A stretch of 64,000 nucleotides of DNA from Vitis vinifera (lineage: Eukaryota > Streptophyta > Magnoliopsida > Vitales > Vitaceae), in contig NC_081817.1 in assembly GCF_030704535.1 (NCBI RefSeq), forward strand, positions 25,669,001 through 25,733,000, written 5' to 3'. The notes beneath the pieces were generated by a model. It was not told the origin of the DNA. It saw nothing but the letters and a program-made list of their open reading frames with translations, and did not search any database. The position numbers and the translations under genes are program-made. Positions 51,228 to 64,000 of this stretch are shown here, in pieces (the first letter of the stretch is position 1; every line of letters starts with the position of its first letter).

Positions 51228-52445
51228 ATCAAACTGTAGGTGAATTTCACACCTTCTGTCTCATTATGTTTTTATGAGGATAGCAGCTGCAAACCTTGTG
51301 TTTCATTTCCTCATTTTAATTCTTACAGATCAACCGAATTCAACTCTTATTGCTAGATCAATTTTGTGAGGGCTATCTTTTCGTCTATTGGTGAGCTTGC
51401 CTGGGTCCAGTTGCAACTGAAACACGCTCAGATCAAATGTGCCTCCATCACTCGAACCACTTGACAAAGAAAGACCCCGACATCCTCTTGGGAGAAATTA
51501 TGTATCACAATATCACCAAATTCAAACAAAACGATGTTGTTCTGTTACTTGGTGATGGGAGCCGTACGTTTTGTTCATTGGGAATTTTTTTTTTTTTTTT
51601 TTCTTCTCCCTCAAATTGATTCAGATAGTTTATTGTTTATTTTTCCAATTTTGTTCTCTCTCCCTGTCAAATTGATACAGATTTGACTGTTAATCCCGTC
51701 TTCTCAGAACCAATGATTGAATTTTCATTTTAAAGAGATGGATCACATTGAAAAGATCCGGCTGCATTGAGGCAACAACAGCCATTACTGCTATTCCAAT
51801 TAATCAAGAACCAGTTACATTAACAAGTCAGTGCCCAATGAAAGCCTTAAAAATTCTTGGATGAGTATTTTTAACAAGAGTAGAATAGCCAGAATTCTAC
51901 ATTCAAACATCTTCTGATCTGCCAAAGCAAAGATTCAGCAATCAGTTTTCCTGAATTGCACAAAAGAGAAGAAAATACATACTGAATATGATGCTCGCAT
52001 GTACATTCCCCTAGCAATTCTGTTATGGGTTATAAAATAAGGAGGCTGCTTTTAACTCCAACTTGCAAAAAGTTCAGTCAGAGTTCTAATATTACAAGAT
52101 TTCTCGTAATGGATCAGTAACATGGCTGCTAACTTTCATCTCTTTCATGAAGATGAATGTTGATCTTCCATTTGTCATTCTTTAAGCACAGCCATAACAT
52201 GTATAAATGACGCTTCCCTTTTCTTTGCTTTCCCACAAGATGAAATTGGAAACTACCTTCAAAACTCTCGGCCCTGATGCCTTCAACCGACGATTGGAAA
52301 GGACTGTCTGTTCTCGTTTACCACCTAAGTAGTTCAAAGACTAGATGCATTAATTAGCATCATCCAATAACTAGATGCATTGGGGCCCAAAATCCTGAAC
52401 AATTACACATTGTGAAAATAATTGTTCTCCCGAGCTCAACCCATT
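51228..52445. other. Convergent gap IMP4 / AQR
   Basis: About 1.2 kb between converging stop codons. It holds the IMP4 3' UTR (T-rich near 51586) and presumably the AQR 3' UTR; no other feature was seen. Confidence 0.45.
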
Positions 52446-55400: not shown

Positions 55401-58400
55401 ATTGTAAGTTGTCAGGATGGATATCTTACTTGCAGGGTACCCTAGTAACCGCATATACATATAGACACTGACAACATATTCAGCCTCTCCCTCATTTTGA
55501 TAGAACCAAGGAGAAGGGGCAGTTTCACCTTTCCCAAGGTAATCAGGGACATCCACTAACTGATAATCATAGGAGAATCCAGCATTTGCTTTATGGAAAA
55601 TATCCGCCTCCTTTACATATGGAAGGTCCCCCAGTTCTCTGTACCTCCAATTGTAAAGTTGAGCAATACTTGGCCTGGCTCTACCCTGGGCATTAAGCTC
55701 AATATATGGAATACCTAGACGGACAAACCTGGTAAACAGACTTTGATCCATGTGACTATACTTTTGGAAAGCCATATTCTTGACAACAGGAGGCAACTGG
55801 TGATGATCACCAATCAATATGCAGCGTTTAAGCCGTGCATACCCATCTTCCTGTCTTTGAAGCAACATTGGAATGAAAGTTTCAATCTCTAATATTTGTG
55901 CACTTTCTTCCATCAACAAGTTGTCATACTTGAACCCTAACTGAAGAAAATCTTTTCTCTTCAAAGCAGCATGGGTGCAAGTCATCGCCACAATTTTTGC
56001 TTGCTTCGTCATTAGATAATTTGCTCGATCAGCTGTTGACTTGAGCAATTCAAATGCCCTACACTCTTCAAGTTCTTGGAACATGGTTTTAAGATGGCGA
56101 AAGCAACCCTTTGCTGCACGCATGTCTTTCTCAAAGGATTCACCCGTGAAAACTGGCTGAGGAGTGTTGGAAAAGAACTCCTTGAAGGGAAAACGATCTT
56201 GAACAAATGTTGGTTTGTCCTCATTACCAGAACAAGCAGCAAGGAACTGTTCCCAGTGTGAATAGACATGAAGCAACCAAAAATATCCAGCAGTTTCACA
56301 AGTATAACCTACATCCTCAGGAAGCTGGAGAGATCTTGCAAGCCTTTCTACTTCACTAAGTAGTTCCAACCGTCGAACAAGCATAGCATTAACACGTCCT
56401 TGACGGCTGAAGTCAAGATCAGTTGCAAGTTCTTGTTCTCCTTGGCCCAGTCGAAGAAGATAGCGAGCGGGCACATCCCTCTGACATAGTAAACATATAA
56501 ATGCTTCAGGAACTTGATTGTAACTGGAGGAGCATTAAAAGTTTCTTCTTCAATTGTAAAAAAAAACAATATCATATTCAAGTAATTAAACTTCATGCCT
56601 CATACCTGCATTATCTTCTCAAAAAGATCATTCAAAGCCTGATTTGAATGAGTGATTATTAATGTTCTCTGAGAAGGGCAATTGTGATAAAGAACATTCA
56701 AGATCTGCACAGCAGTGTCAGTCTTTCCTGTACCAGGTGGACCCACAACCATTGTTAAGCCTGGCTGAATACCTGAACTGATTGCTCCAATCTGCATAGC
56801 AGAGACATTAAGGTAAATAGTCAAAAAGACAGAGTCAATAGCAATGAACATTTTCCCTCCCATTAAAAAATGTAGCTTTCACAATCTATAAACTGTGGTC
56901 CACAAGACATGCTAGACTCACGAGATTTTGGTGGGACATTTGGGTGGGGATTCTAAGCTGAAGGATCTTTTCCCTTTGCCGCTTAGAATTGCAACCCATA
57001 ATTCTGCTGCAGTAGCTGACCTTTGGGGGAGACAAGGAGGTGGAGGCGGGGGTTGGGAGGCGCACTGTAGAAGATCTTTCCAAGATTGGGAATTGGAGGA
57101 GGTTACTCATTTTTTGGAACATATTTCTGCAGTAAAGGTTCAAGAAGGGGAGGATTCCTTAGTTTGGAAGATTGAGAGGAGGGGAAAGCTTAATGTCAAA
57201 TTGTATTATAGGTCTTTAAGGGCTGAGAATAGCCTTTTATTTTCAGCCAAAGAGATTTGGGGTTTGTATGCCCCTCTTAGAACTCGTTTTTTTGCATGGG
57301 AAGCAATTTGGGGAAAAATTTTAATAGTAGACATGTTAATGAAGAGGGGTTGGCCCATGGTCAACAGGTGCAACCTTCGTAAAGACAATGAGGAATCGGT
57401 GGACCACATTCTGATTCATTGTGGTAAGACAAAGGAGTTATGGACTTTGTTACTATCTTCTTTTGGTCTAGTGTGGGTATTCCCGGCCTCAGTGAGAAAT
57501 CTGCTTCTGGAATGGAAAGTTAAGGGACTAGAGAAGAAGAGGAGAGCAGTTTGGAGATTGGCGTCTATTTGTCTTTTTTGGTGTATTTGGGGAGAATGAA
57601 ACCGAAAAACGTTCCAAGAGGAAGGGATGTCAGATCCTTGCTCGAGAAACCTCTTTTTCCAATCTCTTCTAAAGTGGTCTCAACAATTTTTGGATTTAGA
57701 CTCTCTTTTTTCTGAATTTTTTGGGTGATTGATATGTTGGCTAGCTTTTTACCTCTCTAGGTTTTTTCTTTCTTTTTATAGCCTTGTTTTGGCTCTCTTT
57801 GTATACTGCCTGTATACGTAGGGTGCGCCCCCTGTTTTGGCATCTTATCAATTCAAGTTGTCTTCATCTATCAAAAAAAAAAAAAAAGACATGCTAGCTG
57901 GCTAGCTATATTCACACAAACACCAACATCTATGTTGAATAGAAATCAGAAATAGAATTAAAACAGTTTTAACTAAAACATCCCCTTGTTTCCAATGTTT
58001 ACAAAGAAATTCGTCACAGGACATCTAGTGTTGTGGTACTTCCTTTGCAATAATCGCACAAACTTCCAATTCCATGACACTTTCTTTCAGGCTAAAGTGT
58101 TGCCGACTTCCAAGTGAAAGGATATCAAGATCATACAAAAGTAGAAATTTACCACTAATATAAGTATGATTTCATCAATATTTATGCAATATATTTATGA
58201 TCATGTCAACTGGAAGTTCTTGCTATCAGTTCTTAAAAAGATGAAGTTTGATTTAAAAAAATGGATAGGTTGGATTAAATGGTGCACAACTTTTGCAAAG
58301 TTTTATGTGATTGTTAATTACAGCCTTTTTAGTTTGTTCCAAAATCAAAGGGTCAGGCAAGGGGACCTTCTATCTCCCTATGTATTTGTAGTGGCAATGG

Positions 58401-61400
58401 AGGCCCTTAATTGTCTCCTTAAGAGGACCAGAAAGGGAAGTTACCTCTTGAGAGTAAGGATGAGGGGGAGAAATGGTGAAAGGGAAGAGGTGTCTCATTT
58501 GTTGCTTGCTGATGATACTCTCGTTTTTTAGGCTTCCCAAGATTAAATAGTCTAGTTAAGTCGGTGGCTAATGTTGTCTAAAACCATGTTAGGGCTAAAA
58601 ATGAACTTAGAAAAGATCAAGTTGATTCCAATTGAAAGGGTGAAGAATGTAGTGAAGTTGGCCTTGGAACTAGGGTGTAGAGTAGGAGAGCTTCTGTCTA
58701 CTTACATGGGCCATTCCTTAAGTGCACCTTTTAGATCAGTAGCAGCCTAGGATGTGATGGAAGAGTGGTTTCACAAAAGGTTGTCAATGTGAAAAAGACA
58801 AGATATCCATAAAGGAGAAAGCTTATGTTAAGCAGAAGCACATCATCCAATCAACCCACACACTTGGCTTTGTTTAGCATTCCAAGGAAAGTTAGATTGA
58901 GGCTTGAAAAGATTTAAAGAGATTTCTCCTTAGAAGGCGAGGCTCTGGAAAAAAAATTGCACCTCGAAAAGTGGTTGATTGTCTGCACAAAGAATGGTAG
59001 GGGAGGATTAGGCATGAGATGTCTTTTTTCACTTAATAAAGTTCTTTTTTGCAAGTGGAGTTCGCAATACGCAAGTAAAAGGGAAGCTTTTTGGAAACAG
59101 GTCATAACTAGTGATCGATTCTTTTGGGTGGGAAGCAAGGGAAAAAGATGGAGGGTGACGGTCTTGTGAAGTAAGAGATGGGTATGGGATCATGCTATGG
59201 AAAGTTATTAGGAAGGATTGAGATACTTTTTATAGTAGAACTTCCTTTTTGAGAGTAATGGAAGGAGGGCAAAGTTTTGGAAAGCTAAATGGTGTGGATA
59301 TGAGTCCTTGTTAATATCTTTCTCATCTTTATATGCCTTAGCCAACATCAAAAGAAGCTTGGGTGGCAAATTTATGGGACCGCACAAGAGGGTCATTGAA
59401 ACTCTTGTTTTTCTAAACATTTGAATGATTGGGAGTTAGACATTGTAAAAGAATTATTTTCCAAGTTTCAAAAAATGTCAATGAATAGTGAGGGGAGGAA
59501 AAGGTGGCATGAATGGATTCAAGGAATGATAATTTTTCTGAAAAATCGTTATATGTTATCTTGGAACAAGGGGCTTCGATTCCCTTCTTGATGGGTGTAA
59601 TTTGGCATCCATAGGTACCATTTAAAGCAAGTTTCTTCATGTTGGAAGCTAGTTGAGGAAAGGTGTTGACCCTAGATAAACTTCAGGAGAGGATAGTTGT
59701 TGGCTAATAGATGTTTTTTTTGTAAAATTGAAGAACAATCCGTTGATTACATCCTTCTTTGTTTCATCATGAGGAGCACTCAAATAAGGGTTTGAAAGTT
59801 CTTTTAGTTATTTTTTTCGTGTGGGTGAAGTTGTACACTAATCAATTTTGTTGATTTGTTGCATTCTCTCCAAGGGAGGGAGTTTTTTTGTGTTCTCTTT
59901 TTTGGTTGTCTTCTGGCGTACATTATATATGTTTTGTGTACTTTGGTACATTGTTCCTTTAGCGATTGTTTATACAATTTTATTATTTGCCAAATAGATG
60001 TTTCTTGTGTAAAGAAGATAAGGAAACCAATGACCATCATTTTCTATTTTGTAACAAGGCTAGAATGTTGTGGAATCTAATCTTCTCCCTTTTCTGTCTA
60101 CATTTTTTTTTTAATAAATGAGCACAAATTATATTAAAGGGCAAAAAGTCATAAAGCATACAAGGAGTATACAACGCAGCCTAACCCAAAAACAAAAAAA
60201 CAAGCAGCCTCACCAGCCCTTAAGTAGCCGCAAGCCACTCCAAAAAGACTAAAAGCGAAGAGGACTCCTCTCCCATATACACCCTAGCCCAACTCCACAA
60301 GTTACAAACAAAAGAATTTTTGAGTTTTTGTATATCTAAAGAACCCCTCCTAAAAGCTAATCTATTTCTTTCCTTCTATACCGTCCAAAAAATACACAAC
60401 GGGATGGAATACCAGATTTTTTTCCTCTTTCTCCCCACAAAAGGGCCCCTCTAACTAAGTAACACCTCTTTGACTATCTCTGGAAACACCCAATGAACCC
60501 CAAACAATGCAAGAACAATTTCCCAGAGAACCCTGACCACTATACAGTGTAAAAGAATGTGATTTACATTTTCCTCTTCACAGCCACACAAAAAACAGCA
60601 ATTAGGAAACTGTCACCCTCATTTTTTAAGTCTATCCAAGGTGAGAATCTTCCCCCACGTAACCTCCCAAGCAAAAAAATCAGCTTTAATTGGGACCTTG
60701 TCCACCCAAATGTATTTATTCGGGAAGGCGAGGGCATTGGGAGGACCCAACAGGCTGTAAGCATCCCTAACCCCAAAAGTGCCTTGACCCCCACCTTTCC
60801 ATAGCACTGGGTCCTCTTCTTGGGAGATCTTGAAGTCCCTCAGCATATTAAACATAGCTCCTATTAGATCCAGCTCCCAATCATTAGAATCTCTAGCAAA
60901 TCTGAGATTCCAACCCCTTTGACCAAGGGTAGAGTCCCACACATCGTTAACCATTGCATTCCTATGGACCACCAAGGCAAATAACTAAGGGAAATTTCGG
61001 GACAGCGTCGCGTTACCACACCAATGATCAGTCCAGAACTTGACCTTAGTCCCCTTACCCACCTTAAACATCATGTTATCCCAGCACCAATCTGCCTCCT
61101 TCAAAATCTCCTTCCACACTCCCACTCCAAACGCCCTGCGAGCTTCATTAGTCCGCCAACCAAAGCCCTCTTGGCCATACTTCACCCCGATCACTTTCTT
61201 CCAAAGAATATCCTTTTCAAAGGCAAACCTCCAGATCCACTTACCCAACAAGGCCTTGTTAAGGAGATCAATCTTCCGTATACCTAGACCCCCTTTCTCC
61301 TTTTGAGTACACACCACCTCCCTTTTCTGTCTACATTGGGTTTCACATACCACCATGAGGGGGAACTTGCTTGGGTGGAATGGAGCTTCTAGGGGTAAAA

Positions 61401-64000
61401 AAAAGGTAGAAGGCGTGGAGGGCTGCCCCTTTTATGCCTAATGTGGACTTTATGGAGGAAAAGGAATGGGAGAGCGCTCAACGATGTCGAACGGGCCGAA
61501 CAAGCTATCAAATATTCTTTTTTGTATAATTTTGTGAATTGGGCTAGGGTGTATATAGAGGGTTACACTTTGTCTTAGGTTGACTTTATAGATTGGTTGT
61601 TTGTTAAGCAAGGGATTGGCTCTTTTGTCTTTTGACTGCCCCTTTTTTTGGGCGTTTAGTGCATACGTCGTGTATACTGTTTTCGCCATATCTAGGCATT
61701 TCTAATACATGCATTTATTTACCTATAAAAAAAAAAAAAAACAATTTTATTATTTGCCTATCAAAAAATATATATTTGTGCAATATATCATCACCCATTT
61801 GCAACTGTTTCTACATATAATAGACAATCAAGTACAATCTAATCAAAATGTTTAAACCACAATATCATCCAGCAACCTTATTCAGTAATATTGAAAACAA
61901 AAAAAGAATAAAAAAAAAAATTCCCTCTGGTAACACACTGAAAAGTTCTTTCTTTAGTTCCTTACATTGTAAAAGACTAATTTAACACACAAGAGGACTA
62001 ATGATTTAGGTCCTATTCTTCAAAGAAATCCCAATACAGTACCTGTGGGTTCGATCATACAGAGGACAGACCTGAAGAAAGTGACCAGAGTCCAGAACAA
62101 CTTCTTTTAAACCTTATAAGTAAATAACCAATCAGACTTTAGATAAGGAATAATTAGCAGATTGTCTTAACAGAAATTATAACGCACTTATCTTCAAATA
62201 TAATTTTTTTCTCATGTTTGATAGGTTTTTATGTTTAGTCTTTTTGAGGAGTTAGCAGGAGTTTATCATGATTGAGAAGATAGCACTTTTTGGTCAGTTT
62301 AGCTGTCTCTCATAAGGAGCTGGTTTGTATTTCTAGGCCCTAATTTGACTGTCATGGTGGTTTCCAGTTTACTATCTGAGTTGTTCTGGTGTAGCAGCCA
62401 TGGGGTTGCTTCACACCCTCTTTCCCTCTCCAACTTCAATAAACTCTACTATTTACTAGAAGCAAAGCCAAAACAAGAACAGTCAGATACCTACAATAAA
62501 ATAAAATAAAAGTGTGATTTTAATTCATTTAAAAGAAACCATAGCATGGCATTTTTATTTTTTTCCTCTCCCTCTTTTGGTAAGAACAAAAAAATTTTAT
62601 GAATTCTAATCATTTTTATTTTTTTTTTGATAGGAAACGACAAAGGGATGTATTGATAAAAAGGAAGTACAAGAGAAGGATGAGGAATCCTCCCACCAAA
62701 GAAAAACAAAACTACAAGGAATCAAATACAAGAAAATACAAAGTAAAAACAAGCAAACTCTAACTCTAGTGCAGAATTTTTGTACCTCTAATCATATAGA
62801 GGGTACAAAAATACAATGTGCAGAATATTCACTTTAGAAAACAAGAATACTGTATGGGAATTATGGTATTATACAGAATGAGGAAATTCCTAATAAATGA
62901 CTAAAGTTTAACAAGATTCAAAATAGAAACTGCAGATGCTAACCCAAATAGTTGAAGGCATCACTGATTTGAGTAGATTAAAATTTAAAGCTAATTCCAA
63001 CCAACTACAAGAAATGTGCAAGGAAAGACACCAAAAAATAACAAAACACAAATATACACGGAAAATAAAATCCCTTCAAAATATATGAAGCAAATATCAT
63101 GGATAAAAGAGTAGTCTTGCACCTGTGTGGGCGTAAATCTGACAGAGTTCTGTTTGGGCTGATCTTGAGGATAAGGACCTGGGTCAGGAGGAATATATGC
63201 CTCAACAATTAGCTTTTCTCGCTCAGAACCATCATCTGCCTTACTGACATCATTCATTGAAGCTGTAGAGGACTTCTTATTCCCTGGAAGAGCATGGATG
63301 TTTCCTTTCAGCATTCTGGGGAGCCTAATTCGAAAAGGGGGCCTTGGATGCAAATTTTCAGTACCATCTGAATTTATGAATTGAACCTAAAGAAATACAG
63401 TAAAAAGGTATAAGATTACCATTTACAGTTCATGAAACTGTGGAAGATATAAACAAATATAAGTAATTTTACAAAATAAAGATGTCAAAATAATATCAAC
63501 CTGATAATCTGAAAAACACTCTCTCAGATGGTCCACATCAAGAAAAGTATCTTTGAAATCCACTGTCTCAAGAAGATCGGGCATATTAGTCCACTGAGCT
63601 GCAGAAGGATTGCCATAACCGAGAAATATGTTGTGCAACCAATCAGGAACAATACAAGTTTCATTCATAAGATCTCTTATAGATTCCAAAATGGCTTTGA
63701 AATTGTTTTCCTTGGGTTTCCTCCTCATCAATATATTGAATGTCCCATACACGTCTTCTGCATCTTTCTCTGCAATATCACTGACATCCATGTGATATTG
63801 TGCTGTATCTAAAGCAACAGTCACAGTTCTCAGTTCACCTTTTGGAGGCTTCCATTCATCCCGTTTAATTCTCCCAGAGAAATCATTCATAAGAGTTCCT
63901 TCCTCATCACGGATCTCAATAACTTCACATCCACGTACAAATTGAAGACCAAGCCTTTGGGGCACACTAGCCTTTGCAGCTTCTTCCGCACTTAATGGTT
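52446..64000 (-). CDS. AQR: Aquarius (AQR/IBP160) spliceosomal RNA helicase, C-terminal part (partial)
   Basis: Aquarius (EMB2765 in Arabidopsis) is an SF1 RNA helicase that binds intron RNA near the branch site in the spliceosome. Exons (minus) are 64000-63501 (continues beyond the window), 63386-63123, 56791-56606, 56480-55326, 54860-54510 and 52778-52446; frame is kept throughout, about 929 residues in the window. Helicase motifs run in order: TPTQ then [20 protein letters not shown] and [10 protein letters not shown] (Walker A), [15 protein letters not shown] (motif II-like), [11 protein letters not shown] (III), [12 protein letters not shown] (IV), [12 protein letters not shown] (V) and [18 protein letters not shown] (VI). 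The tail after about 52778 is acidic and low-complexity, ends DENKME, and is poorly conserved. The 63386-63123 exon ends NSVRFTPTQ just before the GPPG exon. The 6.3 kb intron between them is packed with LINE insertions. Confidence 0.94.
56904..57897 (+). mobile_element. 5'-truncated LINE D with perfect 12 bp TSD
   Basis: A non-LTR retrotransposon fragment at 56916-57885, antisense to AQR, is flanked by AAGACATGCTAG at 56904-56915 and 57886-57897. It ends in a run of about 13 A. It retains a 223-residue open frame (56928-57599) typical of the C-terminal end of plant LINE ORF2: [12 protein letters not shown], then a zf-RVT-like segment ([11 protein letters not shown] followed by [15 protein letters not shown]) with the second zinc ligand changed to R. 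5' truncation is the usual result of target-primed reverse transcription. Confidence 0.9.
59974..61758 (+). mobile_element. 5'-truncated LINE B nested in LINE A
   Basis: Inserted at 59992-61740 within the 3' end of LINE A. The perfect 18 bp duplication ACAATTTTATTATTTGCC lies at 59974-59991 and 61741-61758, and a run of about 15 A precedes the second copy. The body begins with a zinc-binding RT C-terminus ([20 protein letters not shown]) and continues after 61337 with LINE 3' sequence. It is itself interrupted by LINE C. Confidence 0.88.
60085..61336 (-). mobile_element. LINE C, minus strand, nested in LINE B
   Basis: Youngest insertion, at 60104-61317. The 19 bp duplication CTCCCTTTTCTGTCTACAT is perfect at 60085-60103 and 61318-61336. 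The poly-T at 60104-60112 is its poly-A tail read backwards, so it lies on the minus strand, same direction as AQR. Minus-strand frames give the C-terminal LINE ORF2 region: [38 protein letters not shown] and [19 protein letters not shown]. It is broken between about 60976 and 60984 and is 5'-truncated. Confidence 0.9.
62605..62795 (-). mobile_element. Short poly-T retroelement fragment with 9 bp TSD
   Basis: TCTAATCAT occurs at 62605-62613 and 62787-62795, bracketing 62614-62786. That stretch starts with poly-T followed by GATAGGAAACGACAAAGGGA, which resembles a LINE 3' end on the minus strand (tail read backwards). It is only 173 bp with no coding frame. The 9 bp match could be chance. Confidence 0.45.

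Follow-up and report, generated by a model that had tools for sequence, protein, structure and literature searches.

The intron that separates two exons of the gene for the intron-binding protein aquarius (AQR) in grapevine holds three LINEs lying one inside the other. This raises the question whether the arrangement records three separate insertions, and in which order they took place, or whether it goes back to one LINE that was rearranged. The window, by which we mean the whole stretch of 64,000 nucleotides that was analysed, corresponds to C13:25669001-25733000, and the genome searched for relatives of the elements comprises 495.6 Mb in 21 contigs. A preliminary description of the window had proposed three nested, 5'-truncated LINEs (A, B and C) within a single AQR intron. 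Target-site duplications, protein domains, genomic relatives and a second AQR gene on contig C8 all agree with this proposal.

The AQR intron and its insertions

The exons adjoining the intron belong to AQR, which is encoded on the minus strand. Pfam finds Aquarius_N_3rd on one side of the intron and AAA_11/AAA_12 on the other, and the best PDB match of the exons is 8xi2_Q (E 1.2e-190). The exon ends given earlier, 56791 and 63123, are correct, with a GT..AG intron between them (donor CACACAG/GTGCAAG, acceptor TATGCAG/ATTGGAG). Because the flanking exons are open and the splice sites have been kept, we infer that the intron would still be spliced normally and that the insertions are tolerated. 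In addition to the stack of A, B and C the intron contains two more insertions, LINE D and element E (Table 1). The retrotransposon-derived share, E included, amounts to 4720 of about 6330 bases (75%).

Table 1. Position and strand of the AQR intron, its retroelements and their target-site duplications, in window coordinates.
Feature	Position	Strand	Remarks
AQR intron	56792..63122	-	6331 bp; GT..AG; both neighbouring exons AQR
LINE D	56904..57897	+	not nested; 12-bp duplication AAGACATGCTAG at 56904-56915 and 57886-57897
Left target-site duplication of A	58178..58194	+	17 bp; C8 gene the same except for one base
LINE A	58195..61771	+	truncation point of the 5' end inside the reverse-transcriptase domain; split by B
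Left target-site duplication of B	59974..59991	+	18 bp, perfect; within the 3' end of A
LINE B	59992..61740	+	5'-truncated; A-run ends at 61740; split by C
Left target-site duplication of C	60085..60104	+	20 bp, perfect; inside B
LINE C	60105..61317	-	5'-truncated; reversed with respect to B; its tail lies at the 60105 end
Right target-site duplication of C	61318..61337	+	20 bp, perfect
Right target-site duplication of B	61741..61758	+	18 bp, perfect
Right target-site duplication of A	61772..61788	+	one mismatch, private to the C13 gene copy
Element E	62605..62795	-	about 170 bp, poly(A)-tailed; 9-bp duplication TCTAATCAT at 62605-62613 and 62787-62795

A, B, C and D are non-LTR retrotransposons (LINEs of the plant L1 type). 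Their homology to the reverse-transcriptase ORF2 takes the form of an RVT_1 domain in A (Pfam, E=1.8e-10, profile positions 70-159 of 205) and of zf-RVT in C (Pfam, E=2e-8) and D (E=1.3e-17), and B is identified as a LINE by an ungapped protein-level match to C and D. LINE D has retained an open frame of 227 codons. The A-runs are six bases long in A, 14 in B, 8-10 in C and 13-15 in D, and the target-site duplications vary in length (17, 18, 20 and 12 bp for A to D and 9 bp for E); the leading AA of the duplication of D may be tail. No direct repeat over 30 nt (long terminal repeats) was found within 57500-62500. The endonuclease region is missing because of 5' truncation, and the copies of A to D start inside or after the RT domain.

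Each of the LINEs has relatives elsewhere in the genome. Among the best 40 of 705 candidates scored, A matched one locus on C8 (L002) at 86%, which lies in the second AQR gene, and otherwise reached 66-81%. The best match of B was 87% (best 40 of 472 candidates scored), that of C up to 94% over the whole length (best 40 of 1941 candidates scored) and that of D up to 90% (best 40 candidates scored); an 87% copy of E occurs at C8:1708692-1708832. These relatives also bear out the truncation. Four of six relatives of A at other loci (L003-L008) reach its first bases and all four continue upstream, and 14 of the 19 copies of B that were read begin within its first three bases and likewise extend further. 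Nine of 11 relatives of C reach its first five bases, the other two starting at position 55 (L046) and 112 (L049).

The duplications that flank the elements differ in what they can tell. Random sequences from a first-order Markov model of 57901-62500 served for comparison, and in none of 300 was there an exact repeat longer than 16 bp. The 18 and 20 bp repeats around B and C are longer than in all of these, and are therefore beyond chance by length alone. The 18-bp perfect duplication of B is as first described. That of C is indeed perfect, but it measures 20 bp instead of the 19 reported, and the extra T may be tail. The duplication of A, for which 17 bp with one mismatch had been given correctly, is AT-rich and on its own weak, within reach of chance, since 17-mer pairs that match with one mismatch or none, at least 200 bp apart, turned up in 12 of 200 first-order Markov random sequences. 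It is nonetheless credible because it is placed at the ends of the LINE and recurs in the second AQR gene.

Excision of the inner elements and the second AQR gene

Flanking repeats of this kind could have been part of the LINE consensus, and the relatives of C speak directly to this. Upstream of the point where C starts, all nine relatives that extend so far run on as LINE and do not have the repeat. At the other end the 11 relatives share a common 3' end point, and the 3' flanks of all 11 differ. The upstream sequence and the 3' flanks together rule out that the repeats around C belong to the consensus.

The excision of C had been set as a test beforehand. When C and one repeat copy are removed, the rejoined B (516 bp) gives one unbroken alignment with 14 of 19 other genomic copies of B at 79-87% identity, 13 of them nearly end to end and the 14th (L036) to position 408. 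In one of these alignments (L031) there is a one-base gap, which lies eight bases beyond the join. The remaining five copies (L028, L033, L034, L038 and L039) say nothing on the C site, since they start beyond the join, L033 by two bases. The translation of rejoined B also crosses the join ungapped, over 60 residues with 37% identity to C and over 60 residues with 40% to D. As proposed, C is inserted in B in the opposite orientation, A and B being on the plus strand and C on the minus strand. C and B, in this opposite orientation, share a 49-bp inverted repeat of 82% identity (60275-60323 and 61508-61556).

For the insertion of B into A, a second AQR gene provides the comparison. The genome carries AQR, introns included, at least twice; the two copies lie on different chromosomes, with K about 0.1 between them. 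The homology blocks run from window position 52068 to 77775, beyond the window end (L012, L015), opposite C8:1683146-1726944 (loci L009-L011, L014, L017 and L018), and the C13 copy extends to about 25746775. Block identity ranges from 80.7 to 93.8% in alignments that include rows from 60 or 80 bp up, off-diagonal LINE-to-LINE rows being excluded from gene homology. Both genes have open reading frames in those exons of the helicase region that were examined, with a one-residue deletion on C8. In blastn and tblastx searches covering the window plus 30 kb on C13 and 80 kb on C8, no convincing collinear genes were found outside AQR, and the accessible part of the open-licence literature yielded no published account of a duplicated AQR gene in grape.

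The C8 intron, about 5.6 kb long as judged from coordinates, carries A and both of its flanks at 86-92% identity. There A starts at the identical base, preceded by the same target sequence, and it ends with the same tail region. At the site of B the C8 gene reads straight through with scattered substitutions, and A, rejoined after removal of the interrupting stretch (B plus one copy of its duplication), aligns with it across this site. This confirms that A without B is a continuous LINE, as had been predicted, and that B, on the plus strand like A, sits in the 3' end of A, its insertion point being about 10 bases before the A-run of A. The C8 site and the 18-bp duplication on C13 differ at two bases, in keeping with the divergence between the genes. 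In the alignment of both genes, the C8 AQR intron lacks B with C as well as D and E, the sites of D and E both being empty. The absence of B from C8 also means that there is no independent empty site for C in that gene.

The C8 gene has a history of its own. Its copy of A contains two insertions, at C8:1688467-1689632 and about 1691187-1692216, the second of which has an 11-bp direct flanking repeat and a T-run at its left end; neither gave a tblastx match to A-E at E 1e-3. Elsewhere in the same gene, at C8:1700791-1701978, lies a LINE of the family of C (73% to C) that is missing at the matching place on C13. Further upstream in AQR, at 65180-67170 (past the window end, L012), an A-related LINE is common to both genes at about 85%.

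With these data the origin of the stack can be considered. A single LINE might have produced it by internal tandem duplication and inversion, or by template switching during one insertion. Protein-level matches do place A, B and C in one broad LINE type, and the start of B (59987-60013) has a counterpart in A at 59700-59726 (85% over 27 bp), as a tandem duplication might give. However, at the nucleotide level they are different families: blastn at E 1e-3 finds only a B-C match of 49 bp at 82%, and none between A and B or between A and C. Each element furthermore has its own tail, its own duplication and its own genomic relatives, and in the C8 gene A is present but B and C are not. One rearranged LINE is rejected on the different families and the empty site in C8, and we regard it as extremely improbable.

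An assembly artefact is another way in which a nested stack could arise. LINE families are high in copy number and prone to misjoins, the first-look candidates numbering 705 for A, 472 for B and 1941 for C. Against this, the junctions coincide with duplications and tails, the C8 gene continues without a break across exactly the base where B was inserted, and the contig is chromosome-sized (29.8 Mb), which leaves a misjoin hardly credible. Three separate retrotranspositions of L1-type LINEs, stacked in one intron, most likely by target-primed reverse transcription, are almost certainly the explanation.

Order, ages and mechanism of the insertions

The order of insertion, A, then B, then C, was put forward from the nesting, and it holds; it follows from the nesting together with the presence of A without B in the C8 gene. 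The mismatch in the duplication of A had been offered as further support, the mutated duplication being taken as the older one. This is compatible with the order but weak as evidence. The four copies of the A duplication, of which each gene has two, show three differences in all, and none of these is shared between copies. The left copy on C13 has the inferred ancestral letters, and the right copy on C13 and the left and right copies on C8 carry one change each, at three different positions. Differences that are all private show that the 17 bp were still identical when the AQR gene was duplicated. The mismatch, private to the right-hand C13 copy, is therefore younger than the gene duplication and is no proof that A is older than B.

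The position of A at the same base in both AQR genes indicates that it predates the gene duplication, barring later gene conversion. Such a transfer of A between the two genes after duplication would find some room in the patchy identity of the blocks of the gene pair. Yet K between the genes is 0.129 in the body of A and 0.108 in its 3' end, against 0.065 and 0.097 in the intron flanks. A is at least as diverged as its flanks, and there is hence no sign of recent transfer, so that conversion seems very unlikely. Fourfold-degenerate sites of the gene pair give about 0.096 (37 of 410 sites in open frames, which may include some intron). B with C, D and E, which the C8 gene lacks, either arrived later on C13 or were segregating at the time of the gene duplication.

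The terminal branches of the elements give a further indication of age. That of C is 0.044 (12 sequences) and that of B 0.103 (tree of 14 sequences), which fits a younger age of C. The branch of B is longer than half of the AQR gene divergence (half of 0.065-0.129), though B is absent from C8. It therefore probably includes a part that predates the insertion, or B was already segregating, and it can be read as an upper bound only.

In view of the above, the following course of events is by far the most probable. LINE A entered the AQR intron first, after which the AQR gene was duplicated between two chromosomes. B then entered the last bases of the 3' end of A on C13, or was segregating there at the time of duplication, and C finally entered B in reverse. 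Target-primed reverse transcription is the standard route for L1-type LINEs. In each event, most likely, a nick was followed by priming at the poly(A) end and by copying that stopped short, after which the 5' end was joined, these enzymatic steps being inferred. Incomplete copying would give rise to the 5' truncation and staggered nicks to the target-site duplications.

Short microhomology is known at truncated L1 insertions, and the 5' ends of B and C were probably joined in this way at 4-5 bases. At the 5' end of C the bases are GGGAG, which occur in eight of the nine relatives that reach the start of C, the ninth (L044) having AGGAG. At the 5' end of B they are TGCC, present in six of the 14 relatives reaching that point.

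Relation to known systems and meaning

Nested LTR-retrotransposons of plants offer a close parallel in what was available for comparison, in that there too the order is read from one element interrupting another. The terminal repeats of LTR elements can serve as a clock. In the present stack the order comes instead from target duplications, tails and a paralogous empty site. In the large introns of grapevine LINEs are among the dominant repeats, repeats make up more than 80% of the content, and some intronic LINE insertions are polymorphic among cultivars, according to the available part of a published survey (PMC3058033). The AQR intron shares this richness in LINEs, and it has both a nested LINE stack and a duplicated gene as empty site, neither of which appears in that part of the survey. 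Intragenic transposons in transcribed plant genes, as treated in the accessible portion of another study (PMC10241880), likewise lie inside genes. The AQR intron differs from these in being known from sequence alone, the tolerance of its insertions being deduced from exons and splice sites. A published description of this locus was not found in the accessible open-licence literature.

The stack belongs to a well-known kind, of which it is a clear example, and its internal control is unusually good. It leaves the view of how LINEs work unchanged, the process being ordinary and the record unusually clean. We think it improbable, if conceivable, that LINE A has acted as a repeated landing site that received B (with C) on C13 and two independent insertions on C8. 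If this were true, the preferred or safest targets of later insertions may be old LINEs that lie in the introns of essential genes. With three separate insertions as the explanation, the intron is a clean worked example of LINE stratigraphy, in which nesting fixes the order and the natural empty site of a duplicated gene checks it. The shared and private insertions of the two AQR genes could be of use in calibrating the activity of LINEs and the growth of introns in grapevine, and any private one that still segregates would serve as a ready marker.
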